The notes under the pieces are model-generated. The model worked only from the letters and a program-made list of their open reading frames with translations, was not told the origin of the DNA and ran no database searches. A stretch of DNA of 64,000 nt from Flavobacterium limnosediminis JC2902 (GTDB taxonomy: Bacteria > Bacteroidota > Bacteroidia > Flavobacteriales > Flavobacteriaceae): assembly GCF_000498535.1 (NCBI RefSeq), contig NZ_AVGG01000002.1, positions 310,001-374,000 of the forward strand, written 5' to 3'. How positions within the stretch are numbered: the stretch's first letter is position 1; each line of letters begins with the position of its first letter. Positions 2,085 to 36,842 of this stretch are shown piece by piece. A program made the translations under genes and the position numbers.

Positions 2085-4919
2085 ATGAAAAAAAATCTAC
2101 TATTGCTAATCACTGTCATCTTGTTTGCTTTTGACAGTACTGCTCAATGTACCATTTCAGGAACAACGGTAAACGCAAGTAGTATTACTTGCACTACATT
2201 TAATGGCTGCTCTACGGTTTACATTGGTAACGGAACTGACGCGACTACTTTGGTAATGAACGCAAATTTAAGTTTTCCATGCTTAGGCGCTATTACTTTC
2301 GTAATCCGAAACAATGCCTCCATTGATTTTTCCGACAACAATAAAGACTTAACATTGCCAGCCGGTTCGTCACTTATAGTTGAAAACGGAGGAAGCATAG
2401 GTGCTTCGGGAAACTGTAGTGCCTCCGATTTAATTAAAATCGGAACTACCAGCATAGCCTCATGCAATGGCGGCGGTAGTGGAGTATCAACTACCTTCCC
2501 AGTACTCGTAACCAACGGGGGATATAATGTTGTTACTGCGAGTGCTACTTCAATTTGTGGCACAGGGGCTTCTACGATTACAGCGTCAATGTACCCGGCG
2601 CCAACAGCAGCGACAACATACAAGTTGTATACTGATGCTAGTGGAGGTACTGCTTTATCAACAACAAATTCTACAGCGACACCTTATTCAGCAACATTTA
2701 CAACATCAGTTCTATCATCATCTACCACATATTATGTTGAAGCTATTACAGGTGCCTTTACAACGCAAAGAAAACCGGTTACAGTTGTTGTAAACAACAC
2801 CCCATCAACACCAACGGTGACTACAACACAGCCAAACTGCTCAACTGCATCAGGGGCAATTACTATTACCGCTCCTACAGGTTCAGGAATAACATACAGT
2901 ATTAACGGATCTGATTACACCAATACCACAGGAGTTTTCAATTTATTATCATCTGGAACATATAACGTAACAGCAAAAAATTCTGCAGGATGTATTTCAG
3001 CAGCAAATAGTGTTACTATCAATACCCAACCAACAGCACCAGTAACACCAACATTGGGAACTGTAATTCAGCCGACATGCGCGACAGCCAACGGGAGCTT
3101 TTCCATAAGCAATTACAATGCTGCTTATACTTATGCTGTAACTCCATCAACAGGAGTAACCGTTTCAGGATCTACAGTTACGGCTCCAGTAGGTACCTAC
3201 ACCGTTACAGCGACATCAGGGTCATGTACATCAACAGCATCTTTAAGCGCAACGTTTAATCCGGTTGTAACCAATACCTGGAACGGCTCAACTTGGTCAA
3301 CAGGAGTTCCTCCTACAGCGAATGATAAAATAATTTTTGCCGGCAACTATTCATCTTCTTCTGATATTACAGGATGTTCTTGCCAAATAAATTCTGGTAA
3401 TATTGTTATAAATTCCGGCAATACTTTAACAGTAACCAATGATATCAATGTTTCAGGAGGTTCATTAACATTTGAAGATTCAAGTAGTTTACTTCAGATT
3501 AGCGAAACCGCTGTAAACACAGGAAACATAATCTATAAAAGAACAACAACACCGTTAAAACAATACGACTACACCTACTGGTCGTCTCCGGTAGCCAATG
3601 CCACCTTAGCGCAACTTGCTACTAATTCCTTATTTTATTCCTATACCGCAATTAGCAACAATTGGGTAAGACAATACGCAGGTGACGCAATGGTTAAGGG
3701 AAAAGGTTACATAGGAAGAGCTCCAAGCGGACTTAATTACAGCACTACGCAAATAGTTCAGACAAATTTCATTGGTACACCTAACAACGGAACCATCACA
3801 ACACCTTTCTCAAAAGGAGCAGGCATTCTTAATTTAATAGGAAACCCTTATCCTTCCGCAATTGATATTGATTTATTCCTTACTGATCCTGCCAATGCCG
3901 GAATCGTAAACGGAACTATTTACCTTTGGACACACAATACCGCAATCAGCAGTAGCATCCCGGGAAACCACACGTACAACTACACTGTAAACGATTATGC
4001 AAAATACAATCTTACAGGTGGCACCAAAACTGCTTCGTCAGCAACTACGGGAGATTATCCTGTAGTCCCAACCGGAAAAATAGCTGCAGGACAAGGATTC
4101 TTTATCGATGCCCATACCGCTATGGCTAACGGAACACAAAGTGTAACGTTCAAAAATTCAATGCGCGTACAAAGTAACAACACGCAGTTTTTCAGAACCA
4201 ATCAAACGGAAAACAACACCAATTCCACACCGGTTTCACTTGAAAAACACCGCGTTTGGATTTCGTTAAGTAACACTCAAGGTGGTTATAACGAAGCGCT
4301 TGTGGGATATATCCAGGAAGCAACAAATGAAATGGACAGACTGTTTGACGGAAAAACACTTCCTTCTGAAAATGTGATCTCAGTTTACTCTATGCTGTCA
4401 AACGACAAATTATCCATTCAGGGACGCAGTTTGCCGTTCGCAGCCACAGACATTGTTCCTTTAGGATATACAACTACTCTTAACGGACAAATGAGCATCA
4501 CTTTGGAGAATTTCGACGGACTTTTCGCAAATCAGGACATTTACCTATGGGACAGAACAACAGGGATTTATCACGATTTAAAAGCCAGCGCATTTACCTT
4601 CACAACAACCAGCGGAACATTCAACAACCGTTTTGAGTTACGCTTTACAACAGAAACATTGGGTATTGATGCTCCGCTTGATAACAGCAACGCTATCCGA
4701 GTAATTGCGAAACAAAATCAAATTACTGTATTGTCTGGTCTTTCAAACATCACTAGCATCGAAGTACACGATTTAACAGGTAAATCAGTATACTCCAAAA
4801 AAGGGATTAATACTAATGAATTCAACACTGATGCTATTCCAGCATCATCACAGATGTTGATCGTAAAAGTAACTTTAGACAACAAACAAACTTTAACAAA
4901 AAAAGTTTTAATACCGTAG
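2085..4919 (+). CDS. Large secreted protein with T9SS C-terminal sorting domain
   Basis: A 944-aa surface or secreted protein. It has a signal peptide (residues 1-20, ending FDSTAQ), a Thr/Ser/Asn-rich N-terminal half with Ig-like or SprB-like modules (for example the segments around residues 140-235 and 240-410, with repeated TPTVTTTQPNCSTASG and PVTPTLGTVIQPTCATANG starts), and a C-terminal half shared by many Flavobacterium adhesin-like proteins (TYWSSPVANA, GNPYPSAIDID). The last ~75 residues (LGID... VHDLTGKSVYSKKG... TLTKKVLIP) fit the type C T9SS sorting signal. Likely exported by type IX secretion, whose components are not in this window apart from a PorP/SprF protein at 54.4 kb. Ligand unknown. 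Confidence 0.85.
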   Translation: MKKNLLLLITVILFAFDSTAQCTISGTTVNASSITCTTFNGCSTVYIGNGTDATTLVMNANLSFPCLGAITFVIRNNASIDFSDNNKDLTLPAGSSLIVENGGSIGASGNCSASDLIKIGTTSIASCNGGGSGVSTTFPVLVTNGGYNVVTASATSICGTGASTITASMYPAPTAATTYKLYTDASGGTALSTTNSTATPYSATFTTSVLSSSTTYYVEAITGAFTTQRKPVTVVVNNTPSTPTVTTTQPNCSTASGAITITAPTGSGITYSINGSDYTNTTGVFNLLSSGTYNVTAKNSAGCISAANSVTINTQPTAPVTPTLGTVIQPTCATANGSFSISNYNAAYTYAVTPSTGVTVSGSTVTAPVGTYTVTATSGSCTSTASLSATFNPVVTNTWNGSTWSTGVPPTANDKIIFAGNYSSSSDITGCSCQINSGNIVINSGNTLTVTNDINVSGGSLTFEDSSSLLQISETAVNTGNIIYKRTTTPLKQYDYTYWSSPVANATLAQLATNSLFYSYTAISNNWVRQYAGDAMVKGKGYIGRAPSGLNYSTTQIVQTNFIGTPNNGTITTPFSKGAGILNLIGNPYPSAIDIDLFLTDPANAGIVNGTIYLWTHNTAISSSIPGNHTYNYTVNDYAKYNLTGGTKTASSATTGDYPVVPTGKIAAGQGFFIDAHTAMANGTQSVTFKNSMRVQSNNTQFFRTNQTENNTNSTPVSLEKHRVWISLSNTQGGYNEALVGYIQEATNEMDRLFDGKTLPSENVISVYSMLSNDKLSIQGRSLPFAATDIVPLGYTTTLNGQMSITLENFDGLFANQDIYLWDRTTGIYHDLKASAFTFTTTSGTFNNRFELRFTTETLGIDAPLDNSNAIRVIAKQNQITVLSGLSNITSIEVHDLTGKSVYSKKGINTNEFNTDAIPASSQMLIVKVTLDNKQTLTKKVLIP

Positions 4920-7699: not shown

Positions 7700-8572
7700 A
7701 TGAAAGCATATGTATTCCCGGGTCAGGGTGCGCAATTCACCGGAATGGGTAAAGATTTATATGAGAATTCGGCAGTAGCCAAAGAGTTGTTTGAAAAAGC
7801 GAACGAAATATTAGGCTTCCGTATCACCGACATTATGTTTGAAGGTACGGCGGAACAATTGAAAGAAACCAAAGTTACGCAGCCGGCGGTATTTTTACAC
7901 TCGGTTATTTTAGCGAAAACATTGGAAGATTTCAAACCGGAAATGGTAGCAGGTCACTCTTTAGGAGAATTTTCGGCTTTAGTAGCCAATGGTGCTTTAT
8001 CGTTTGAAGATGGATTGAAATTAGTTTCCCAACGTGCTTTAGCCATGCAGAAAGCTTGCGAAATTACACCATCAACCATGGCAGCGGTATTGAATTTAGA
8101 AGATAAGATTGTAGAAGACATTTGTGCGTCTATCGACGGTGTTGTCGTTGCGGCCAACTACAACTGTCCGGGACAATTGGTGATTTCCGGTGAATTGAAA
8201 GCCGTGGAAGAAGCCTGCGAAAAAATGAAAGAAGCCGGAGCGAAACGCGCTTTGATTTTACCGGTTGGTGGTGCATTCCACTCACCAATGATGGAACCGG
8301 CCCGTGAGGAATTAGCTGCGGCTATCGAAGCAACTACTTTCAGCACACCGATTTGTCCTGTTTATCAGAACGTAACGGCAAGCGCGGTATCCGATGCGAC
8401 CGAAATCAAGAAAAACTTAATCATTCAATTAACTGCTCCGGTAAAATGGACGCAATCGGTACAGCAAATGATTGCTGACGGCGCAACTTCATTTACGGAA
8501 GTAGGTCCGGGGAAAGTATTGGTTGGATTGGTAAATAAAATCAATAAGGAAGTGGAAACTATTTCTGCTTAA
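7700..8572 (+). CDS. fabD: FabD, malonyl-CoA:ACP transacylase
   Basis: Cytosolic enzyme of fatty acid synthesis that moves malonyl from CoA to acyl carrier protein. The 290-aa protein has the N-terminal FPGQGAQ motif, the nucleophile elbow GHSLGEF with Ser87 and the catalytic His in GGAFHSPMM near residue 195. Length is usual for the family. It has its own promoter and terminator and no other fab gene next to it. Confidence 0.96.
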   Translation: MKAYVFPGQGAQFTGMGKDLYENSAVAKELFEKANEILGFRITDIMFEGTAEQLKETKVTQPAVFLHSVILAKTLEDFKPEMVAGHSLGEFSALVANGALSFEDGLKLVSQRALAMQKACEITPSTMAAVLNLEDKIVEDICASIDGVVVAANYNCPGQLVISGELKAVEEACEKMKEAGAKRALILPVGGAFHSPMMEPAREELAAAIEATTFSTPICPVYQNVTASAVSDATEIKKNLIIQLTAPVKWTQSVQQMIADGATSFTEVGPGKVLVGLVNKINKEVETISA

Positions 8573-8594
8573 TCCTTAAAAAGTTTACACTTGA

Positions 8595-8626
8595 AACTCC
8601 GTCGGTTGTCCGTCGGAGTTTTTTAT
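8595..8626 (+). terminator. Terminator of fabD
   Basis: Arms AACTCCGTCGG and CCGTCGGAGTT around TTGT, with one T-T mismatch, then six T. Confidence 0.85.
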
Positions 8627-8660
8627 TTTAATGATATCTTTGTGAAACAAGACGACAACT

Positions 8661-9452
8661 ATGAATCAGAATAATTTGCGAACCGTTACAGTGATGCGTT
8701 ATATTACGCCACTTCGGGAAGGCGGTTCTTTACCTGCTTTGGCAGAAGCCGATGACGATTTCAAATATGTTTTGAAATTTCGCGGTGCCGGTCATGGCGT
8801 AAAAGCATTAATTGCCGAATTGCTTGGCGGAGAAATTGCCCGTTTTTTAGGATTGCCGGTTCCGGAACTCGTTTTTGCCAACTTAGACGAGGCTTTCGGC
8901 AGGATGGAAGGCGATGAAGAAATTCAGGATTTATTGAAATTCAGTCAGGGCTTGAATTTAGGATTGCATTACCTTTCGGGAGCGATTACCTATGACGCCG
9001 CCGTGAATGATTGCGACGAACTCCTTGCTTCTAAAATCGTTTGGCTTGATGCTTTCATCACTAACGTTGATCGAACCTTCCGCAACACGAATCTATTGAT
9101 CTGGCATAAGGAACTTTGGCTGATTGATCACGGCGCTTCCTTTTATTTTCACCATTCCTGGGACAATTGGAAAGCGAATGCGGTGAGTCCTTTTGCACTG
9201 ATAAAAGATCATGTCTTGTTACCAAAAGCAACAAAAATGGAGGAAGTCCATGCAGAATTTACCCAAAAATTAAACGACACGGTACTGAAAGAGCTTGTAC
9301 ATTTAATTCCGGAAGATTGGTTGCAATGGGAAAATGGAGAAATAACTTCCGAAGAAATTAAAGACGTTTACTTTCATTTTTTGTCCTTACGACTGGCAAA
9401 CTCAGATAACTTTTTAAAACAAACACAAGATGCACGAAAAACACTTATATGA
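8661..9452 (+). CDS. HipA-like kinase (HipA_2 type)
   Basis: A 263-aa protein resembling the stand-alone kinase-like HipA family (HipA_2). Visible kinase features are YVLKFRG with a candidate ATP Lys39, a catalytic-loop-like FITNVDRTFRNTN with D137 and N144, and a metal-binding DHG (WLIDHGASF, D156). It lacks the HipA N-terminal domain and no HipB-type HTH partner is nearby. The next gene (DUF3037) overlaps its 3' end by 23 bases, the usual pairing for this family. A TATCTTTG -7 element is at 8635-8642. Substrate unknown; a toxin role is not established for this type. Confidence 0.8.
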   Translation: MNQNNLRTVTVMRYITPLREGGSLPALAEADDDFKYVLKFRGAGHGVKALIAELLGGEIARFLGLPVPELVFANLDEAFGRMEGDEEIQDLLKFSQGLNLGLHYLSGAITYDAAVNDCDELLASKIVWLDAFITNVDRTFRNTNLLIWHKELWLIDHGASFYFHHSWDNWKANAVSPFALIKDHVLLPKATKMEEVHAEFTQKLNDTVLKELVHLIPEDWLQWENGEITSEEIKDVYFHFLSLRLANSDNFLKQTQDARKTLI

Positions 9453-9813
9453 ATATGCCGTAATTCGTGTGGTACCTAAAGTAGAACGCGAAGAATTTAT
9501 CAATATCGGATTGATACTTTTCTGTAAGCAACAAAAATACCTGAAGATTGAGCATCAAATCCCTATGGAGAAAATAAAATTATGCTGTCCGGATTTTGAC
9601 GTGGAACAATTGGAAGAAAACATAACCTCGTTTACCAAAATTTGTTCCGGGAAGCAAGAAGGAGGCCCAATAGCAGAATTTGAAATAGCGGAACGCTTTC
9701 GTTGGCTCACAGCGGTGAGAAGTTCCAGCATACAAACCTCAAGACCACATCCTGGTTTTAGTACGAATCTGGACAAAACATTTGAAAAATTATATGCCGA
9801 ATTGGTTCTATAA
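9430..9813 (+). CDS. DUF3037 domain protein, partner of the HipA-like kinase
   Basis: A 127-aa protein matching DUF3037 by its start (YEYAVIRVVPKVEREEFINIGLILFC) and its C-terminal RFRWLTAVRSSSIQTSRPHPG. It starts inside the kinase gene, in another frame, so the two are translationally coupled and probably act together. The pairing is widespread in bacteria, but the biochemical role is unknown. Confidence 0.85.
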   Translation: MHEKHLYEYAVIRVVPKVEREEFINIGLILFCKQQKYLKIEHQIPMEKIKLCCPDFDVEQLEENITSFTKICSGKQEGGPIAEFEIAERFRWLTAVRSSSIQTSRPHPGFSTNLDKTFEKLYAELVL

Positions 9814-9939
9814 AACCCCTCTCTCGGAATAGTTTGTTTTACAACCTATTTTTTTTTTACCTGTTTTGTTTTTTATTAAAATTTTATTTTAACTTTATCC
9901 ATAAGTATAAATGATTATTAATTCTTAAAAAATCAACAA

Positions 9940-10191
9940 ATGAAAAAAACACTTTTAGCCTTAGCGTTCGTTGGAGCATTGATGGTTTCTTGTAAAGAAA
10001 AAACTGAAGAGAAAATGGAAGAAGCAACTGATGCTGCTGCAACTGAAATGGTTGAAACTGTAGACACTGCTGCTGCTGCAACAGAAGCTGCTGTAGACAC
10101 TGCTGCTGCTAAAGTAGAAGACGCTGCTGCTGCCGGTGCTGCTAAAGTAGAAGAAGCTGCAAAAGACGCTAAAGAAGCTGTTAAAAAGTAA
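9940..10191 (+). CDS. Small Ala/Glu-rich lipoprotein
   Basis: An 83-aa protein with a lipoprotein signal (lipobox MVSC, Cys18) followed by a Glu/Lys stretch and Ala-rich degenerate repeats (DTAAAATEAAVDTAAAKVE). It should be helical and anchored to a membrane. It is a paralogue in style of the protein at 16679-16915; both have KETx-rich starts and TEAxDTAAA units. Function unknown. A strong terminator follows immediately. Confidence 0.75.
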   Translation: MKKTLLALAFVGALMVSCKEKTEEKMEEATDAAATEMVETVDTAAAATEAAVDTAAAKVEDAAAAGAAKVEEAAKDAKEAVKK

Positions 10192-29583: not shown

Positions 29584-29667
29584 GCTCGAGTGGTGGAATC
29601 GGTAGACACGCTGGACTTAAAATCCAGTGGACATTAGTCCGTGCGGGTTCAAGTCCCGCCTTGAGTA
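29584..29667 (+). tRNA. tRNA-Leu (UAA), integration target
   Basis: 84-base class II tRNA: acceptor GCTCGAG/CTTGAGT with G-T wobbles, anticodon stem TGGAC/..CCA with loop containing TAA, a long variable arm, T loop TTCAAGT. CCA is not encoded. Its last 20 bases plus three downstream are repeated at 36250-36272, so the element at 29671-36272 is integrated here and supplied the present 3' end. Confidence 0.95.
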
Positions 29668-29670
29668 CAA
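29648..29670. repeat. Left attachment core (attL) in tRNA-Leu
   Basis: 23 bases from the T loop to three bases past the tRNA end, identical to 36250-36272. The bases on either side differ between the two copies. Confidence 0.88.
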
Positions 29671-29671
29671 G

Positions 29672-29720
29672 AAAAAACCGTAATATACTTTAAATTAAGT
29701 ATTTACGGTTTTTCTTTTTT
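29672..29720 (+). terminator. Element-borne terminator after tRNA-Leu
   Basis: ACCGTAA..TACTT pairs with AAGTA..TTACGGT, followed by TTTTTCTTTTTT. It replaces the native terminator, which now lies right of the element at 36271-36304. Confidence 0.75.
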
Positions 29721-29726
29721 ACATTC

Positions 29727-29749
29727 CTCCCACATATCTCCCACATTTT
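29727..29749. repeat. Left tandem repeats CTCCCACAT
   Basis: CTCCCACAT at 29727-29735 and 29738-29746, period 11 bases. The same pair in the same orientation and period is at the right end (36087-36108). They are candidate arm-type binding sites for the integrase. Confidence 0.6.
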
Positions 29750-29775
29750 AGAAAACACTTCCAAAATTACCTTTC

Positions 29776-29928
29776 TTAAACATTTTTATCTTCACCCTTC
29801 TCCATTTTCACCGCCTGTTTTTCCTTGAAGTTCTTGTGTGCCTGAAGTGCTGCTTTCTGATTGTCCGTTAATTTGTCGAAGTCTGTCCAATCTATTTTCA
29901 GATTTGTTTCTTTTTTGTCCTGTTCCAT
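29776..29928 (-). CDS. 50-aa hypothetical protein of the element
   Basis: A short frame, ATG at 29928, encoding a charged, helical peptide (MEQDKKETNLKIDWTDFDKL..., ending MEKGEDKNV). The amino-acid content looks like a real cytosolic protein rather than a random AT-rich frame. It is the leftmost gene in the element. No family recognised; function unknown. Confidence 0.5.
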   Translation of the reverse strand: MEQDKKETNLKIDWTDFDKLTDNQKAALQAHKNFKEKQAVKMEKGEDKNV

Positions 29929-29940
29929 AAATGATTTATT

Positions 29941-30501
29941 AAGTGATTCAATATCTTTTCCATTTCTGCCTCACGCGCAAACTCAGATTATAGTTTTTTA
30001 AAGATTTTGAGTTTTATAGATTGTATAAATGTTTGATACAAAGAATATTCGCGTGGGGTTTATTTACGTTGTATAAATGTACTACTTTTCAACCTGCTCT
30101 ATGTTTTGGATAGGGTAAAAAATTTTGTATATATCTTCAAGGTTGGTTCCCTACCCCCTATATAAACCGTTTGGGGCATTTCGGAAACTCGGATTTTTTA
30201 GGGGTATAGGGGTTGAATTATCTCGGTCAAAAAATATTTTTCCGTTTTTTTTATTGAGGCGGTTTGCATGGCTCTACTGTTTTTGTAATCCTACTTAGGT
30301 CACACGTAAAACTTGTAAAGTCGCACCAATAAAGGAAACTTTTATTTCACTGCTATTTTTTCCCAACCGTTTGCACAATCACACTATTTACACTGTTTTT
30401 TCCGTAGTGTATTATGAAAGAAAAACCTATATTTGGTTTAATACCTATAAAGGTTTCAGACTGCAGTTTGTAAAAAAGGAACTTAAATCGTATTTAAAAT
30501 T
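29941..30501. other. Noncoding segment of the element, possible origin or control region
   Basis: About 560 bases with no supportable gene. It contains a 12-base direct repeat TTGTATAAATGT (30021-30032, 30069-30080), an inverted repeat CCCCTATA/TATAGGGG (30155-30162, 30205-30212) flanking T- and G-rich DNA, and three CCGTTTG/CGGTTTG words near 30166, 30254 and 30366. At 30428-30435 there is a TATATTTG -7 element that could serve the gene at 30502. Given the replication-initiator-like gene nearby, this is the best place for an origin, but I see no nick-site motif I can name. Confidence 0.4.
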
Positions 30502-30768
30502 ATGCTTAGAAAACTACTATTGTATTTAGAAACGAAAACCGTTTTATTTTTGGTTGTGTATTGTGTCTTTTCAATCTTATATACTTTTGTAATTGAAAGT
30601 ATAACTTATAAAAATAACTCATTGAGCCCGCATCTACTTGAAGTTACCGGAGAACAGATGCTAAGTCGAGGGTTGTTGGTTTTTATGATTTTTGTTTTTT
30701 CATTCTGCTGTTTTGAAATAAAAGAAGGCAAGATTAAAATACGTCCAGAAACCAGACATAGAACTTGA
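30502..30768 (+). CDS. 88-aa protein with two membrane helices
   Basis: A small inner-membrane protein: hydrophobic segments at about residues 13-31 (VLFLVVYCVFSILYTFVI) and 55-72 (GLLVFMIFVFSFCCFEI), with a charged Lys/Arg/Glu tail. It is the only gene of the element read rightward, opposite to and facing the 87-aa gene (19-base gap). A -7 element is 66 bases upstream. No family recognised; a holin-like, immunity or anchoring role would be a guess. Confidence 0.55.
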   Translation: MLRKLLLYLETKTVLFLVVYCVFSILYTFVIESITYKNNSLSPHLLEVTGEQMLSRGLLVFMIFVFSFCCFEIKEGKIKIRPETRHRT

Positions 30769-30787
30769 TTTTTTCAACACAAATAAA

Positions 30788-31051
30788 CTATCCAAATATT
30801 GTTTTAAGTAAGTCGTTAACATACTTTTCTACGTCCTGAGTATCATATTGTAATTCGACGTCCCTTCTCCCCCTTAAATCAAAACCTCTTACTTGTTTCT
30901 TCATTTGCTCGACGTTAAAAACTTTATTTGTAATGTAATTTATCAAGAGTGATTCGATTTTGTCCTTATCGCTCTTACTTATAAATTCCTTAACGCCTTT
31001 TTTAATTAATTTGTTTGCTATCTCGGTTAATTCTCTTTCTATTACTATCAT
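30788..31051 (-). CDS. 87-aa hypothetical protein
   Basis: A charged, mostly helical protein (MIVIERELTEIANKLIKKGV..., KIESLLINYITNKVFN, RGFDLRGRRDVELQYD) without signal or membrane segment. It starts 16 bases after the replication-initiator-like gene ends, so it should be in the same transcript. Function unknown; a size and position like a replication accessory protein is only suggestive. Confidence 0.65.
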   Translation of the reverse strand: MIVIERELTEIANKLIKKGVKEFISKSDKDKIESLLINYITNKVFNVEQMKKQVRGFDLRGRRDVELQYDTQDVEKYVNDLLKTIFG

Positions 31052-31067
31052 TGTTTGAGTGTTTTTT

Positions 31068-32384
31068 TTAATTGGTTAGTAATGTGGTTAATAAATTAGT
31101 TTGTCCTGAAGGGTAAAGTCTGTTTTGCTTTATTCTTTGGTTGCTGTCGGTGTTTCTAATATTGTGAGCGATCTCTTTTATTTGCATTTTGTAATCTGAG
31201 AAAACCCACTTGCCGGACAAATACCGTCTTTTGATTTGCTCAAATGTTTTTTTGTCGGTTAGATAATAATATTTCAATCCGGTATGTGATAGTAAAAGAC
31301 TGTTTTCTTTCTGCATCGAAATATCTAATCCAGTCACTTTGCAAACTGATTTTTCAGAAGGTGTTGAAGAAACCAACTCCACCTTTTTTGACAGTATATT
31401 TAAAGTGTCAATTTGGGTGGTGTTGAAGTTTAAAAAATCCACCTTTTGACTAATTACTTCAGTAATGTTTTTTTGAATATTGTTTGAATACGTTTTTGTT
31501 ATTTCTTTAAACTGCTTTCGGTGGGTTTTAAAGTTCTCTGTTTGATTATTCGACAACAACCCACTCCAATAATTTGGATTTGAATATTCCAACATTCTAT
31601 ATTTAAGTTTTGTACTTAAAGTGTCAATTTGGGTGGTGTTGTCATAAAACAATACATTTTCCCATTCGGTTATCAATTCATTTTTGAAGTTATGAAGTCC
31701 GTAATTTATTAAGTCAAATAGCGTGAATATACCCTTCTTATTTAATTTTTCCATTCTAGTATATTTAATCTCGAAACGCATTATTTCGCTGTCAATTTCA
31801 AAACCTTTTGATTTGTAGTGCAATGCCTTATTATATGCCTTAATTATATACTGCGAATGTTCAACTTGCTTGTATTTTCCCTCCTCTGAATTTTTTTGAT
31901 ACTCAAAAAGTTTTGTTTTATGCAGTAGGCAGTTATTTAAAATCTCGTTTGTTGGTTCCGGCGGCGTGATATTAACACCTACTTCCAAACACTTTAAAAT
32001 ACATTGCTGAGGTGTTATATTGAATTTATCGTTTAAATCATTTAAAACCAACAAAACAGCCTTTAAATCAAAATTGTTATAATTATGCGCTCCGTTGTTC
32101 CAATACTTATGCAGACTTCCTTTAAAAAAAACGGTTCCCGTATCATAAATTACAAATTCAATTCCTTTGTAATATGCATGTTTGTATGGTGTTATTGCAT
32201 ATCCGTAACGATTGACTGTTTTTATTTCTCCGGTTGTCACGCTTGCCTTTCTTTCAAAATCTAATAAGGTGTTACCTTCCAATTCGGATGGATCTAAATC
32301 CTTGATTAATATTTTTACAAAGTCTATCAATTGATTATATTTGTTGAAGTTTTGACATTGCCTGTTAAAACGACTTTTGAACAA
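31068..32384 (-). CDS. Putative replication initiation protein (phage gene II/X-like)
   Basis: About 438 aa. The motif FFKGSLHKYWNNGAHNYN, followed by CLEVGVNITPP, QYIIKAYNKALHYKSKG and IMRFEIKYTRMEKL, follows the order seen in phage/plasmid replication proteins of the gene II/X family, which nick and join DNA in rolling-circle replication. This is recognition by motif pattern, not a search. There is no in-frame ATG near the 5' end: the frame opens at a TTG (32384), while the ATG right after the preceding stop (32418) is in another frame, so the real start is uncertain. A hairpin lies between. Confidence 0.5.
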   Translation of the reverse strand: MFKSRFNRQCQNFNKYNQLIDFVKILIKDLDPSELEGNTLLDFERKASVTTGEIKTVNRYGYAITPYKHAYYKGIEFVIYDTGTVFFKGSLHKYWNNGAHNYNNFDLKAVLLVLNDLNDKFNITPQQCILKCLEVGVNITPPEPTNEILNNCLLHKTKLFEYQKNSEEGKYKQVEHSQYIIKAYNKALHYKSKGFEIDSEIMRFEIKYTRMEKLNKKGIFTLFDLINYGLHNFKNELITEWENVLFYDNTTQIDTLSTKLKYRMLEYSNPNYWSGLLSNNQTENFKTHRKQFKEITKTYSNNIQKNITEVISQKVDFLNFNTTQIDTLNILSKKVELVSSTPSEKSVCKVTGLDISMQKENSLLLSHTGLKYYYLTDKKTFEQIKRRYLSGKWVFSDYKMQIKEIAHNIRNTDSNQRIKQNRLYPSGQTNLLTTLLTN

Positions 32385-32387
32385 AAT

Positions 32388-32412
32388 AAAGGGAGCCTGA
32401 ACAACTCCCTTT
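32388..32412 (-). promoter_or_regulatory. Hairpin before the replication-initiator-like gene
   Basis: Arms AAAGGGAG and CTCCCTTT around nine bases, followed on the minus strand by ATTTTG. It lies just upstream of the TTG start and contains the only purine-rich SD-like stretch, so it could be an attenuator or a weak terminator that limits expression. Confidence 0.5.
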
Positions 32413-32418
32413 TTTCAT

Positions 32419-32862
32419 TTATTCCGTTTTGTAGGTATTAATTATTTGCGCTAAAATTTTTGGGGTTGCCGGATAGAATGAAAAATAAACGTCAATTATT
32501 AGCCATATTTCCGGCTCTTGGGTTATAAAGTTTTTACCCTCCGTAAAGTGGAATATTAAAAGACTCTTCTTTTCGCCTTTTCTCTTATCTCCGTAGTAAA
32601 TGTTTTTTATTCCTGTTGGCCTTAATCCGGTAACTGCCTCTGATGTTTTCCAGCTATTTGTGTTTCTTATTCTCAAATACTTTGTAATACCTGAAGATTT
32701 AGATTTTTCTTGATAAGGCTCTATTCTAATTAGTTCCTCAAAATGATTAAACCCGCCTTTTAACCCTATTAGTCGGTAAACTGTATATGATTTGGTTTTG
32801 TTTAAAACCCCGTAGACGTGCCTATGAAATTCGGGAGTTTTGAAATTGCCTGTCTTTTCCAT
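32419..32862 (-). CDS. 147-aa hypothetical protein
   Basis: A cytosolic protein with many aromatic and Lys residues (MEKTGNFKTPEFHRHVYGVL, YTVYRLIGLKGGFNHFEEL, IWLIIDVYFSFYPATPKIL). It starts two bases after the HTH gene stop and ends just before the replication-initiator-like gene, so the three form one operon. No family recognised. Confidence 0.7.
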   Translation of the reverse strand: MEKTGNFKTPEFHRHVYGVLNKTKSYTVYRLIGLKGGFNHFEELIRIEPYQEKSKSSGITKYLRIRNTNSWKTSEAVTGLRPTGIKNIYYGDKRKGEKKSLLIFHFTEGKNFITQEPEIWLIIDVYFSFYPATPKILAQIINTYKTE

Positions 32863-32864
32863 AA

Positions 32865-33143
32865 TCAGCCATTTAAAGGGGTTAAACTTTTTTCAATGTC
32901 TGATTTTAGGAAATAAACTCTTGCCCCGATTCCGTAAGGCGTGAGTTTGCCTGATTTGCACCAGTTGTGAACGGTGGATATATCTACCTTAAAAAGTCCT
33001 GCGACTTCTTGGCGTGACAGATATTCTTCCGGCTGTTTTGGTTTGAAGTGTTTAAGAAATTCGTCTAAATGACTTTTTACACTCTCTGCGATTTTGTTTT
33101 GTAGTTCGTCAGGGCTAACGGAAATGAATTGAATTGCACTCAT
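32865..33143 (-). CDS. Small helix-turn-helix protein, excisionase-like
   Basis: A 92-aa DNA-binding protein. The C-terminal half, YLSRQEVAGLFKVDISTVHNWCKSGKLTPYGIGARVYFLKSDIE, is a MerR/excisionase-type HTH_17 domain; the N-terminal part is helical. The ATG at 33143 (MSAIQFISVSPDELQ) is chosen over an upstream TTG at 33176 because that is the usual protein start. It heads the HTH-147aa-Rep operon, with hexamer repeats upstream at 33182-33221. It may be the Xis or the regulator of the element. Confidence 0.82.
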   Translation of the reverse strand: MSAIQFISVSPDELQNKIAESVKSHLDEFLKHFKPKQPEEYLSRQEVAGLFKVDISTVHNWCKSGKLTPYGIGARVYFLKSDIEKSLTPLNG

Positions 33144-33181
33144 AAGTTTTTTATTTATTGTTAAACTTGAGTACAAATCTC

Positions 33182-33221
33182 AATCGGTTTCATTTCCGAT
33201 TCATGGTAGTTTTTTCCGATT
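33182..33221. promoter_or_regulatory. Hexamer repeats upstream of the HTH gene
   Basis: AATCGG (33182-33187) inverted to CCGATT (33196-33201), and a second CCGATT at 33216-33221, exactly 20 bases after the first. They lie 40-80 bases upstream of the HTH gene start, with a -7-like GAGATTTG (minus strand) between. Possible operator for the HTH protein. Confidence 0.4.
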
Positions 33222-33243
33222 CTCGGGGATCCGTTTTATTGTA

Positions 33244-34191
33244 TTATTTCAGCTCGAAAATCTCTTTTACTATTAAGTTGTAATTATTTTCTCTTCCTGC
33301 TGACGAATATTTGGTGCTAAAACTCTCTTTATTTAAAAATTCTTGATGTGTTTTTTCGCTTATAAAATCGTTTTCAAATAACCATTCCATTAGTTTTGAA
33401 TGTGTTATAGGAATAATTCTTTCTTCCTTTTTCATTTTTTGAATTAAAAAACTATAATCCGCATACCTATCAATAATGTATCTTTCTGAGTAAATTTTAA
33501 ATAACAAATAATTTTTTTCGTCTGCACCACAAAATACTTTAGGGAACGGATTTTCATTCACAGATACTTCTTTTTGAATTTCAAAAGTCCTTTCTTTTAT
33601 AGTATTCAAATATTTTATTTCTCCTCTATAATCAATATCTTCTAAATATTCTTTCCCACTTAAATCGTTTATAATTTTACCTATTACCTGAACTCTGGTA
33701 TCTCCTGGTATTGTGTTAATTCCATTTAAAAAAACAGACTTTTTGAAAAAAGTTTCTATTTCATCAATGTTTGTGTAAATACTGTTTTCCAACTCAGTAT
33801 AAATTATCAATTCTTCTGTTTTGATTCCGGTTCCTGATAAAGTCTTTAGAAAACAATCATATTTTATAAATACAGATAAGTAGTAAGAGCGAATTCTAAC
33901 TGATAATTCGGCCGGAGCATTATTATGAATCAACACTCTTTCTAGTAATTCGAGTTTATCGAAATTATCTAAAATTGTACTTATGTCTTTTTTAAACAGT
34001 TTGAATGTGGATATATACAACTCTTGACTTGTAATTTCTTTTACAATATCTGCTATCAACATCAATCTAACATAATTAGGTATTTCTTTGCCCCTATATG
34101 TCAAATCGTCGTTATTAAGTAGTTTCTTGATTACTTTGTAGATAATGTCGTTTGAATATTTCGATTGAGTATTTTCAATTTTTATAATCAT
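33244..34191 (-). CDS. 315-aa unrecognised protein of the element
   Basis: A cytosolic, helical, Ile/Lys/Asn/Glu-rich protein, starting MIIKIENTQSKYSNDIIYKV, with a later HSKLMEWLFENDFISEKTHQ stretch that looks like a small helical module. No catalytic motif, signal peptide or membrane helix is evident. It stands between the HTH operon and the 86-aa gene with 43 and 100-base gaps. No family recognised. Its place in a small element, where replication and integration genes are accounted for, makes it the main candidate for cargo (for example phage resistance or host interaction), but that is speculation. Confidence 0.7.
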   Translation of the reverse strand: MIIKIENTQSKYSNDIIYKVIKKLLNNDDLTYRGKEIPNYVRLMLIADIVKEITSQELYISTFKLFKKDISTILDNFDKLELLERVLIHNNAPAELSVRIRSYYLSVFIKYDCFLKTLSGTGIKTEELIIYTELENSIYTNIDEIETFFKKSVFLNGINTIPGDTRVQVIGKIINDLSGKEYLEDIDYRGEIKYLNTIKERTFEIQKEVSVNENPFPKVFCGADEKNYLLFKIYSERYIIDRYADYSFLIQKMKKEERIIPITHSKLMEWLFENDFISEKTHQEFLNKESFSTKYSSAGRENNYNLIVKEIFELK

Positions 34192-34234
34192 GCCTATTTG
34201 AACTTTTGAACTTTAATTTTGTTAGTTACACCAA

Positions 34235-34495
34235 CTACTTACTTAGTCGGGCTTCCTCAATATAATCAAACATATTATCTAAAATTTTAATGTTCTTCAT
34301 TAAGGCTTTAAAGTCAGTTTCTGTCATTTCGTTATTTGTTTCCGGTGTGGTTGAAAGTTTATACAAATGACTCGTTACCGCATCATTCAAAAACCTTTTT
34401 AGGTTTGATACTCCGTTTTCTTCTTCACCCATTTCTAAACATCTTGTTAGACCTAAAATTTCTAATTCTGGCTGCGTAAAATTAAAATTATCCAT
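34235..34495 (-). CDS. 86-aa hypothetical protein
   Basis: A soluble, acidic helical protein (MDNFNFTQPELEILGLTRCLEM..., ending NMFDYIEEARLSK) with no recognised family. It lies 43 bases upstream of the 315-aa gene and six bases downstream of the 54-aa membrane peptide gene, probably one transcript. Confidence 0.6.
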   Translation of the reverse strand: MDNFNFTQPELEILGLTRCLEMGEEENGVSNLKRFLNDAVTSHLYKLSTTPETNNEMTETDFKALMKNIKILDNMFDYIEEARLSK

Positions 34496-34501
34496 ATTTT
34501 T

Positions 34502-34666
34502 TTATTTATTAACCTCAACTATTTCTAATTCACCAGTCCACCTATCCAACAGCAAAGCATTATCATAATTACTCTTGATTACTTTGTATCTACTCATTAC
34601 AGCTAAAACAATGATACCAAAAAAGAGTACTATTGCTAACTTGTTTTTATTGAAAAATTCTTTCAT
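34502..34666 (-). CDS. 54-aa single-pass membrane peptide
   Basis: A short frame with ATG at 34666. The protein starts MKEFFNKNK, has one membrane helix (LAIVLFFGIIVLAVM, residues 10-24), then RYKVIKS and NALLLDRWTGELEIV. The final NALxLDRWTGE pattern resembles the end of many small bacterial membrane-anchored peptides with a short outside domain. It sits between the integrase and the 86-aa gene. Function unknown. Confidence 0.6.
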   Translation of the reverse strand: MKEFFNKNKLAIVLFFGIIVLAVMSRYKVIKSNYDNALLLDRWTGELEIVEVNK

Positions 34667-34699
34667 AATATTTATCAAAAATTTTTAAAGGTTGGCTTA

Positions 34700-36031
34700 C
34701 TATTGTGCGTTTCTAATTACTGTCATTCCAGGCTCCTTATCTTTGTTCAATCGCTCGTAAAACTGCATAAATAAATCTGCGTTAGCATCTTTATCTTCCC
34801 TTTGATTTATGTAGTTCAAAAACAAACTTTCTTTTGAGTGTCCGGTTATCTGAATTAATACGGCCGTTGGTATTTTTTTGTAATAATTTGATGCAAACGA
34901 ACGTCTAAAACTATGTGTCGTTATTAATTCCCATTTAGGGTAAAAATTTTGTATTTTACGCATTGTTTCCGGCTTGTTTTTCTTTGCCTCAGGGTTTAAT
35001 TTTTTACCTTCTACTTTCTCATTTATTTCCGCAATCTCGCAAACTTTTTTAATGTGTTCATTCAGTTTTTGAGTACTTACCTTATATGGAAATTCGTTTT
35101 TCATTATGTCGACAACATAAGGATTAATTATTCCAATCGTTACTGATTTTTTTGTTTTCCGTTGTATAACGTCCAAATACATTCGTCCGCCTTTATACCG
35201 AATATCCTCTTTTGTAATATTCAATAAATCACTTGCACGCTGTCCAATCTCACAACCTATTAAGATCCATTTACGGGCGTTTAAATGGGCATCATTTGTA
35301 ATTTTATTGCAAGTTCTAATTTGTTCCAATTCATCAAATGACAAAGTAACTATAAAACGTTCCTCGTTTGATTCTGCAAAACCTTCTATTTGCTTAATAT
35401 ATGGGTTTGTTTTTATCTCTAATTTTTCAGCATCCAAACAAACAGTTTTTAAATTATCTAACTGCTTACCGGAGTAGTTTTTGGAATAGTTTCTTGTGTT
35501 AATTAACCAGTTCGTAAACTTATCTACAAAGGTTTTATTAATATCTAAGAAGTGAATTTGTTTTTTGATTGCTGTCTTTTGATAGTCTTCAATTATTTTT
35601 TTAAAAGTTTCGTAACCCTTAACCCTACTTTTTGAAATTCCTATCTGATTACGTCCGGAAACTTTGCGGGTGTTAGCGTTATCAATAATGAACTGAATAT
35701 GATTTGCAAGTATTCCAGTATCCTTTTTTTCAACCCTCTCAAAACATTCATTGATTTGATTTGATAGCCAAAATTTATCAATAACGGTAGAATCGGTTAA
35801 GGCTTCATTATAACGGTCTTCTAAAAAACTTTGCAACTTCAATAACGACTTATGAAGTAATTTATTAACGTCGTTATTTTTCTTTGGTAGGTTTGTTTCT
35901 GTCCAGTCTTTTTCATTTATTGAAAATCCGGTGTTTGCGGTTACGTCTGTTTTTCTACCTACTTTAAACCTTACCGAGATAGGTTTTTTCTCTTTTGTAC
36001 TGCTTTGCAGTCTAAACTGAATATTTGCCAT
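34700..36031 (-). CDS. Tyrosine recombinase / integrase
   Basis: A 443-aa site-specific recombinase that would integrate and excise the element at tRNA-Leu. The N-terminus is the arm-binding domain typical of Bacteroidota integrases (MANIQFRLQSSTKEKKPISVRF), then a core-binding SAM-like domain, then the catalytic domain with Arg in GQRASDLL, HSFRR, GHS and the nucleophile Tyr in FLNYIN. The ATG at 36031 is preferred; the longer frame from a GTG at 36094 would run through tandem repeats at 36087-36108. It is adjacent to attR, reading inward. Confidence 0.93.
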   Translation of the reverse strand: MANIQFRLQSSTKEKKPISVRFKVGRKTDVTANTGFSINEKDWTETNLPKKNNDVNKLLHKSLLKLQSFLEDRYNEALTDSTVIDKFWLSNQINECFERVEKKDTGILANHIQFIIDNANTRKVSGRNQIGISKSRVKGYETFKKIIEDYQKTAIKKQIHFLDINKTFVDKFTNWLINTRNYSKNYSGKQLDNLKTVCLDAEKLEIKTNPYIKQIEGFAESNEERFIVTLSFDELEQIRTCNKITNDAHLNARKWILIGCEIGQRASDLLNITKEDIRYKGGRMYLDVIQRKTKKSVTIGIINPYVVDIMKNEFPYKVSTQKLNEHIKKVCEIAEINEKVEGKKLNPEAKKNKPETMRKIQNFYPKWELITTHSFRRSFASNYYKKIPTAVLIQITGHSKESLFLNYINQREDKDANADLFMQFYERLNKDKEPGMTVIRNAQ

Positions 36032-36086
36032 GTTTGAACTTTTGAACAACTCAAAGGTAAGGCTTTGTTTTTCAATTACAAGTTTT

Positions 36087-36108
36087 ACTCCCACATTACT
36101 CCCACATT
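36087..36108. repeat. Right tandem repeats ACTCCCACATT
   Basis: Two perfect 11-base copies (36087-36097, 36098-36108) between the integrase gene and attR, matching the pair at the left end. Nearby, TTTCATT occurs at 36116, 36126 and 36136, a 10-base period. Candidate integrase arm sites or integrase-promoter operators. Confidence 0.6.
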
Positions 36109-36249
36109 TCTACTATTTCATTCCATTTCATTAGTTTTCATTCTATCATTAAAGGCAATAAAAAAACTTTAAACAATAGCATTTACAAGAGTTCAAGGTT
36201 CATTTATACGATTTTTAAAGACATTACAAAAAACACAAAACAGACAGGT

Positions 36250-36272
36250 TTCAAGTCCCGCCTTGAGTACAA
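36250..36272. repeat. Right attachment core (attR)
   Basis: Exact 23-base copy of the tRNA-Leu 3' end at 29648-29670. The native chromosome resumes after it. Confidence 0.88.
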
Positions 36273-36447: not shown

Positions 36448-36476
36448 TTGAATATATCGAGACTTTTATATTTTTG
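36448..36476 (+). promoter_or_regulatory. Promoter of the DUF1508 gene
   Basis: TTG at 36448-36450, 18 bases, TATTTTTG at 36469-36476, 24 bases before the ATG at 36501. Confidence 0.7.
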
Positions 36477-36500
36477 CAGCCTTTAAAAACAAACACTCCA

Positions 36501-36842
36501 ATGGGAACTTTCGCCATCAGCAAAAAAGAGAACGGACTAATTAAATTCGAATTCAATTCCCGAAAAGGAAAAACCCTTTTAACGAGTCAGAGCTACAAAA
36601 GCAAGGAAGAGTGCGAAAAGGATATTTTGTACCTAAAAGAACGTGTCGAGAACGTTTCGTTTTTAAAATTCAAAACACCCGCAGGTAAATTTTTCTTTAA
36701 ATTGATTCATGACGGACACATTCACGGCATCAGCAGAAAATTCACCACCGAATTACTTTTAGCCAAAGGACTGGACGAGATGAAGAACAACTTTTCAGAA
36801 TCAGAAATACTCGACTTCTCCGAGGATATCTTTTTCGATTAA
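36501..36842 (+). CDS. DUF1508 (YegP-like) protein
   Basis: A 113-aa cytosolic protein with two DUF1508 repeats (FAISKKENGLIKFEFNSRKGKTLLTSQSY and FFFKLIHDGHIHGIS). YegP-type proteins have unknown function. The ATG at 36501 (MGTFAISKKENG) is chosen because a TTG at 36474 would lie inside the -7 element. Confidence 0.88.
   Translation: MGTFAISKKENGLIKFEFNSRKGKTLLTSQSYKSKEECEKDILYLKERVENVSFLKFKTPAGKFFFKLIHDGHIHGISRKFTTELLLAKGLDEMKNNFSESEILDFSEDIFFD

Follow-up and report, generated by a model that had tools for sequence, protein, structure and literature searches.

In a 64,000-nucleotide stretch of the Flavobacterium limnosediminis JC2902 genome (contig NZ_AVGG01000002.1, positions 310,001 to 374,000; hereafter the window, in whose coordinates all positions are given), we identified a 6,602-bp insert seated in the tRNA-Leu(UAA) gene. 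This insert is real, intact-looking and, by the comparative signs tested, mobile, and it belongs to a widespread family of small islands with a predicted rolling-circle initiator (Rep). The family is apparently undescribed, no account of it having appeared among the matches listed in searches of a largely open-access literature. We consider it probable that the insert, 6.6 kb long and intact-looking, is a site-specific integrative element capable of excision and of rolling-circle replication, and dependent on a helper for its transfer; its integration is well supported, and its excision and replication by Rep are likely. A preliminary description, made from the sequence alone, had proposed a small element, integrated at tRNA-Leu, that carries a replication-initiator-like gene. 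It had also suggested comparing related genomes, looking for the gene set at other tRNA-Leu sites and searching with the structure of the 438-aa protein, and had named the lack of homologues in other small elements as an argument against recent mobility. The proposed element is borne out by the att repeats, by empty sites in relatives and by the fold predicted for the 438-aa protein, all reported below.

The insert is bounded by an exact 23-bp direct repeat, with the left att copy at 29648-29670 and the right att copy at 36250-36272. As had been proposed, one copy is the 3′ end of tRNA-Leu(UAA) (29584-29668, plus strand; ARAGORN and Rfam), the integration target, which is restored by the left copy. 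The repeat can be extended to 26 bp with one mismatch, starting at 29645 and 36247, and this 26-mer has no further match in the 64-kb window at 18 or more of its 26 positions. The G+C content of the insert is 31.1%, against a flank mean of 40.1% (standard deviation 0.7%, minimum 38.7%) over 221 overlapping segments, each of insert length. The element lies between the tRNA gene and a 122-aa gene at 36474-36842, and its Rep and integrase are single-copy in the host genome.

Comparison with 29 related genomes showed that the tRNA-Leu(UAA) site is empty in 20, occupied in three and unreadable in six. A site was scored as empty when the homologue of the 122-aa gene that follows the insert was found 58-549 bp after tRNA-Leu(UAA); the six unreadable sites (G002, G023, G032, G037, G051 and G054) could not be judged because this gene was on another contig, lay elsewhere or was not found. 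In the empty site of genome G012, the tRNA is followed by ACAAAAGCTTCAAATT, the sequence found after the repeat at the right junction of the insert. The occupied sites are those of the window's own genome (G000), of G010, which holds a related element with a repeat spacing of 6,025 bp, and of G077, which holds another related element with a spacing of 11,363 bp, both at the identical site. Direct repeats of a tRNA end at both borders and empty sites in relatives are the marks of a tRNA-targeted integrative element.

The tyrosine recombinase of the element (464 aa; 34700-36094, minus strand) matches Phage_integrase (E = 9.3e-12) and Phage_int_SAM_5 (5.3e-8). In an alignment of 22 integrases, K313, R397, H419 and Y428 are invariant and R286 and H394 are conserved in at least 90%; these six positions, which we take to be the catalytic residues, identify the protein, together with the Phage_integrase match, as a tyrosine recombinase with a conserved active site. 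A 103-aa protein of the HTH_17 family (32865-33176, minus strand; HTH_17, 4.3e-11; PHROG excisionase/regulator, 5.5e-8) is a putative excision factor or regulator. Both genes had been recognized, as a tyrosine recombinase and a small helix-turn-helix (HTH) protein, in the preliminary description.

Based on a motif search, we identified two CTCCCACAT motifs 11 bp apart near the left end (29727-29746, starting at 29727 and 29738) and two more, with the same spacing, near the right end (36088-36107, starting at 36088 and 36099). Apart from these four copies, the 9-mer is absent from both strands of the 64 kb, and about 0.025 copies would be expected in the insert by base composition. We regard the paired motifs as putative arm-type integrase sites because of their position at the ends and because paired repeats of different sequence are found at both ends of five relatives (L021, L025, L026, L097 and L106; L numbers denote loci and G numbers genomes). 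The att repeats, the empty sites and the conserved catalytic residues show by comparison that the integrase recombines the 23-bp end of tRNA-Leu. It probably acts through the paired arm sites spaced 11 bp apart, and the HTH_17 protein would serve as an excision factor or a regulator. The element would leave the chromosome as a 6,602-bp circle.

Rep (438 aa; 31068-32384, minus strand) is a predicted Rep_trans-fold rolling-circle initiator, as judged from a fold model and an alignment. An AlphaFold2 model with a mean predicted local distance difference test score (pLDDT) of 80.8 was compared with the PDB using Foldseek, and all six matches below 1e-3 were rolling-circle initiators of the Rep_trans family (4cwe, 4cwc and four chains of 4cij), with low query-normalised template modelling scores of 0.23-0.37. 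VIA-align matched the model to 4cwe (RepDE; Z 12.8, 236 residues, 3.9 Å) and 4cij (RepSTK1; Z 12.2, 223 residues, 4.2 Å), and the next fold was that of the TATA-binding protein (TBP; Z 6.4). A TBP-like sheet in Rep_trans initiators was remarked upon by Carr et al. (PMC4797284). In BFVD, inovirus Rep proteins stand at ranks 1 and 3. On the strength of the match to 4cwe, the predicted model has the crescent-shaped Rep_trans catalytic fold; other families are missing from the fold-match tables, an absence that excludes none of them. The likeness of the 438-aa protein to gene II/X replication proteins, as first suggested, therefore holds at the level of fold, with inovirus Reps and Rep_trans initiators as its neighbours, but not at the level of family, where no model gave a meaningful match.

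Among 17 aligned Rep relatives, D21, E134, K182, Y184, K186, R203, E205 and W273 are invariant, and G89, S90, N101, D104, G136 and N138 are conserved in at least 90%. In their 2016 paper, Carr et al. (PMC4797284) give D46, D142 and E214 as the metal ligands of Rep_trans proteins and Y191, within R189-x-Y191-x-K193, as the nucleophile; R212-x-E214 and R140-x-D142-x-A144-x-D146 are further motifs, and a similar motif order is reported for Phage_Cri. By order and spacing, rather than by superposition, the Rep motifs follow the published arrangement, with several residues changed: D21, C132-x-E134-x-G136-x-N138, K182-x-Y184-x-K186 and R203-x-E205. From the prediction and the alignment, Rep would use Tyr184 to nick one strand, the metal being bound by Asp21, Glu134 and Glu205, and this nick would start rolling-circle replication.

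The 438-aa Rep was matched in 20 of 150 related genomes, a tally that includes G000, G044 (C-terminal domain only) and G018 (fragments with stops), and in 23 of 395 genomes sampled over the phylum, G000 included. It was also matched in four named contigs, two from Flavobacterium, one from a Bacteroidia metagenome-assembled genome and one from Sphingobacterium. The 38 places with Rep, Rep fragments or a Rep replacement are the window, L021-L043 and L097-L110; we read 24 of them gene by gene, leaving outside this reading L034, L036, L038, L039, L043, L098, L100-L105, L108 and L110. Two of the 24, the decayed L032 and L033, in which Rep is replaced, were set aside, so that 22 loci stand behind the counts. 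Matches to HTH_17 and to Phage_integrase are present at all 22, and the HTH gene precedes rep in every case, either immediately or separated from it by one or two genes of 90-202 aa. An open reading frame (ORF) of 205-502 aa occupies the slot before the HTH gene in 20/22, the exceptions being L037 and L106, which have no ORF of at least 80-85 aa there. The integrase gene is upstream in the same direction in 20 loci; in L040 and L041 it is found at the opposite end and points the other way. Homologues in other small elements thus exist, with integrase, HTH_17 protein and Rep shared by 22 loci.

Repeats of a tRNA or transfer-messenger RNA (tmRNA) end were found at 14 of 19 places tested, with copies 3.9-13.2 kb apart. 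The gene set does recur at other tRNA-Leu sites: the repeats correspond to the ends of tRNA-Leu(UAA) (window, L025, L027 and L097), tRNA-Leu(UAG) (L021, L026, L032 and L040) and tRNA-Leu(CAA) (L022), as well as to those of tRNA-Ala (L023), tmRNA (L028), tRNA-Phe (L037), tRNA-Cys (L106) and tRNA-Met (L109). Near one border of L040 (5979-6265), three tandem copies of a 99-nt unit at 94-bp spacing each end in a sequence like the tRNA-Leu end, perhaps reflecting repeated integrations or att duplications. A remote Rep relative (25% identity) lies behind a small HTH gene in L128 (MT835707.1; features at 4350-4652, 8440-8757 and 9004-10176), a human-faecal scaffold filed, unverified, as phage; two tyrosine recombinases are nearby, as judged by eye, and the HTH-Rep pair may reach gut elements.

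Several results weigh against an integrated rolling-circle element. By order and spacing, two Rep_trans active-site residues are changed in Rep (Asp142 to Glu134 and Arg189 to Lys182), and substitutions are also present at three conserved neighbouring positions (Arg140 to Cys132, Ala144 to Gly136 and Asp146 to Asn138). Rep has no meaningful match in Pfam, NCBIfam or PHROG (best DUF3860, E = 0.021, below the cut-off), nor do its 17 aligned relatives in Pfam; PF02486 in particular matched neither the window Rep (E up to 0.5) nor the 17 relatives (E up to 0.1), and a search of PDB sequences with a Rep profile gave one chance match only. In view of its substituted residues and the lack of a model match, we do not file Rep as a member of Rep_trans. 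At five of the 19 places tested (L029, L033, L038, L041 and L042), no att-like repeat was found at an RNA gene. No free form was seen: 72,556 plasmid records contained one remote Rep match and 50,697 phage records one match, and two scans of viral contigs, which reached close relatives only, contained none. Finally, no origin was found: shuffled versions of the segment 29930-30500 fold as well as the segment itself (z -0.52).

Two 29-bp direct repeats (97% identical) lie 216 bp apart inside rep (31397-31425 and 31613-31641); they encode NTTQIDTL twice and might belong to an origin within the gene. In pT181, the origin lies inside the rep gene. An intergenic region beside rep in L026 (8458-8760) contains two 56-nt repeats (79%) and, by eye, several ACGCG...GATAG-like motifs and is a candidate origin; CACGCG at 29971-29976 of the window is possibly similar.

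In four loci (L033, L111, L112 and L116), a large unassigned ORF takes the place of Rep. L033, in which the repeat test found no att-like repeat, reads integrase, Fic-like protein (by eye), 277-aa protein, HTH and an 869-aa ORF whose end matches the C-terminal domain of the window Rep (40-42% over 84 residues). The relatives of this ORF in L111, L112 and L116 (798-800 aa, 50-53% identical to that of L033) are without this domain and follow a gene judged by eye to be an HTH gene; L116 shows part of an integrase, and the sequences of L111 and L112 stop short of that position. All four proteins contain the unvarying motifs DIKSAFPTF and RLHDA, which, by motif reading only, recall palm polymerases such as the TV-Pol enzymes of PMC2579912. 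The L033 ORF has no meaningful match in Pfam or PHROG, and the same holds for PDB sequences searched with the four-sequence profile. PF00476 misses the replacement ORFs even at E 10; in six of six genomes its one match falls elsewhere, on an open frame of 946-967 aa that is the host polA by place and frame.

Two further observations concern these variants. L126 (1-2424) carries a relative of the large replacement ORF after an HTH-like gene; the frame is open at its 3′ end and continues, by eye, into a P-loop helicase-like part, a possible polymerase-helicase fusion. A Fic-like protein (by eye) lies between integrase and slot protein in L027 (11228-12307) and L033 (4442-5536), which otherwise differ, L027 having Rep and L033 the large replacement ORF.

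The Pfam, NCBIfam and PHROG scans of the ten window ORFs recognised no transfer, coupling or virion gene, in agreement with the earlier statement that structural, packaging and transfer genes are missing. For this reason, we propose that the element would spread with a helper, either conjugative or phage. One alternative, which overlaps with our interpretation and which we consider rather unlikely, is an integrative mobilizable element (IME) whose 438-aa protein is mainly a MobT-like relaxase that nicks an origin of transfer (oriT), the strand being carried by a resident conjugative element. According to PMC7563843, streptococcal elements that encode an integrase together with a Rep_trans protein turned out to be IMEs; this protein, once taken for an initiator, was needed for transfer and was identified as the relaxase. 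The window Rep is predicted to share the Rep_trans fold, and many integrated elements of such size have no transfer genes of their own. However, neither a coupling nor an accessory transfer gene was recognised in the window, and the host genome has no TIGR03783 conjugation ATPase, a weak test given a 56-contig draft and no control genome that passed the cut-off. Moreover, an unrelated large protein in the Rep slot of four loci argues for replication rather than only strand transfer.

We find it unlikely that the element is a phage satellite, which would excise and replicate upon infection and be packaged by a helper phage. Its size, tRNA site, integrase, regulator and replication gene, with the anti-phage candidates of its relatives, resemble known satellites, and weak small-terminase-like matches are present in L031 (1.2e-4; a DNA-binding family scores better) and L023 (0.023). 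Nevertheless, no packaging-related gene was recognised in the window, seven of whose ORFs are unassigned, the two scans for close relatives gave no Rep relative in viral contigs, and the small proteins of L033 and L030 are without terminase support. In addition, the host genome has no PF03237 terminase (6/14 controls were positive), which argues against a resident helper phage of that kind.

A filamentous-phage relic that kept only an integrase and a gene II-like replication gene would account for the fold-level match of Rep to inovirus Rep proteins, but we give this alternative almost no credence. The ten ORFs include no recognised Zot-like, coat or adsorption gene, and membership of the Inoviridae is not indicated, as none of them matched a Zot-like ATPase gene; on this ground we rejected the relic. 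Furthermore, neither the reading frames nor the catalytic residues look damaged, and the 22 loci that share the core have no recognised virion gene (sought in relatives by eye and in scanned proteins only), a pattern not expected from decay. An immobile remnant is also highly improbable: the window element is single-copy in its genome and its relative L032 is plainly decayed, but the open frames, the exact att repeats, the paired end motifs and the conserved catalytic residues speak against a remnant. Of the three origins first considered, an integrated rolling-circle element is thus best supported, the filamentous relic is disfavoured and the satellite keeps the low standing given above.

The remaining genes would form a cargo slot, which in some relatives holds anti-phage candidates. 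A PADLOC scan of ten proteins, chosen by eye in four relatives with defined borders, matched a model in seven cases: PDC-M65A (E = 6e-122), PDC-M65B (8e-250) and AbiH in L022, PDC-S33 in L027, PDC-S49 (1e-68) and PDC-S02 in L097, and a TIR effector in L109. The ten ORFs of the window gave no meaningful defence-model match in PADLOC; the HTH protein matches the HTH model mad1, which we take to reflect the shared HTH, and the 87-aa protein has a weak Cas10 match (0.0043). Beside the integrase end of L107 (11461-13615), genes for a TIR/STING-like effector and a nucleotidyltransferase were noted by eye, an arrangement resembling a cyclic oligonucleotide-based antiphage signalling system (CBASS).

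In the window, the variable slot before the HTH gene holds a 315-aa protein (33244-34191, minus strand), to which the slot proteins of 17 aligned loci are only 11-25% identical. The slot protein of L097 has the C-terminal segment in common with it (E = 4e-10, a single comparison), as does, weakly, that of L035 (7e-4), and a phage search with the 315-aa protein gave no match. It is a possible regulator, a role suggested on the basis of an RteC match just below the cut-off in the slot protein of L023, the one slot protein of 17 that matched RteC at all. A 147-aa protein (32419-32862, minus strand) is kept between HTH and rep in some relatives, with five relatives in the equivalent slot (23-47% identical), of which that in L106 is weak; a profile of the first five sequences matched in 3 of 150 related genomes, G000 included, and a beta-rich model (pLDDT 78.3) gave no fold match above background (best Z 5.4). 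The small genes listed earlier as unassigned are present as open frames, except that the supposed 54-aa gene is a 58-aa ORF with a TTG start (34502-34678, minus strand), the shorter length counting from an inner ATG. This ORF, an 86-aa ORF (34235-34495, minus) and three cargo ORFs of 87 aa (30788-31051, minus), 88 aa (30502-30768, plus) and 50 aa (29776-29928, minus) have no meaningful family match. A terminase small subunit among the small ORFs of the window was considered and not adopted, having no family support, and a 104-aa protein of L033 has no convincing relation to the DUF5681 protein of L023. Outside the insert, mutS lies upstream and clpX and clpP downstream (names by eye from translations), and the Rfam scan yielded two tRNAs and nothing else.

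More tentatively, the family may be a phylum-wide hitchhiking class, with a fixed core (an integrase with element-specific paired arm sites, a variable slot protein and an HTH_17 protein), an exchangeable replication slot and an anti-phage cargo slot. As part of this same tentative reading, the replication slot would be filled either by an initiator of Rep_trans fold and divergent sequence or by a large replication protein unrelated to it, the two sharing a C-terminal domain in one variant. If the reading is true, the unassigned small proteins of the window would have new functions in defence or in the exploitation of helpers. The ways in which small islands that lack transfer genes move in Bacteroidota are for the most part not understood. 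The family offers a marker (the Rep fold and residue pattern), a shared gene order, empty sites and, in 14 loci, borders defined by repeats, which opens excision, replication and helper identity to direct testing. It would also show whether the Rep_trans IMEs of Firmicutes, or phage satellites, have an equivalent peculiar to Bacteroidota, and it marks a slot where the search for new anti-phage genes can begin.

NBU1 carries a mobilization protein and, unlike it, the window element has none that was recognised. The NBU1-type mobilizable units of Bacteroides (IntN1, as cited in PMC6764341) are otherwise similar in being Bacteroidota elements with a tyrosine recombinase and helper-dependent transfer. 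Phage satellites such as the phage-inducible chromosomal islands (PICIs) share with the window family the size class, integration, a replication gene and, in some relatives, anti-phage cargo; they differ from the window element, in which no packaging-related gene was recognised. The TV-Pol mobile elements (PMC2579912) combine an integrase with a replication enzyme and are recorded also from Bacteroidetes; the likeness is limited to the variant loci L033, L111, L112 and L116 and to motif reading, as PF00476 did not match them. A marine element (PMC12324425) has no known replication protein according to its authors and is of a different kind. The initiators of the pT181 family and the Geobacillus Rep_trans initiators (4cwe, 4cij; PMC4797284), as well as inovirus Reps, share the fold and active-site order of the window Rep. 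The latter differs from Rep_trans initiators in that one metal-binding Asp is replaced by Glu, one Arg is replaced by Lys and other neighbours are changed, and in being encoded in an integrated element.

The streptococcal Rep_trans IMEs of the IME_oriT type (PMC7563843) resemble the window element in having an integrase, direct repeats and a Rep_trans-fold initiator-like protein and in having no transfer apparatus of their own. They differ in integrating mostly into the oriT of integrative and conjugative elements and in having proteins with a PF02486 domain, whereas the window family occupies tRNA and tmRNA ends in Bacteroidota and has no family-model match. The nearest case in Flavobacteriales, compared by description only, is the 10K island of Riemerella anatipestifer, whose excised circle was detected by PCR (PMC6764341). 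That island differs in its 53-bp repeat and its 12 mostly hypothetical ORFs and, like the window element, is adjacent to a tRNA gene, tRNA(Arg), and has an IntN1-like integrase and direct repeats.

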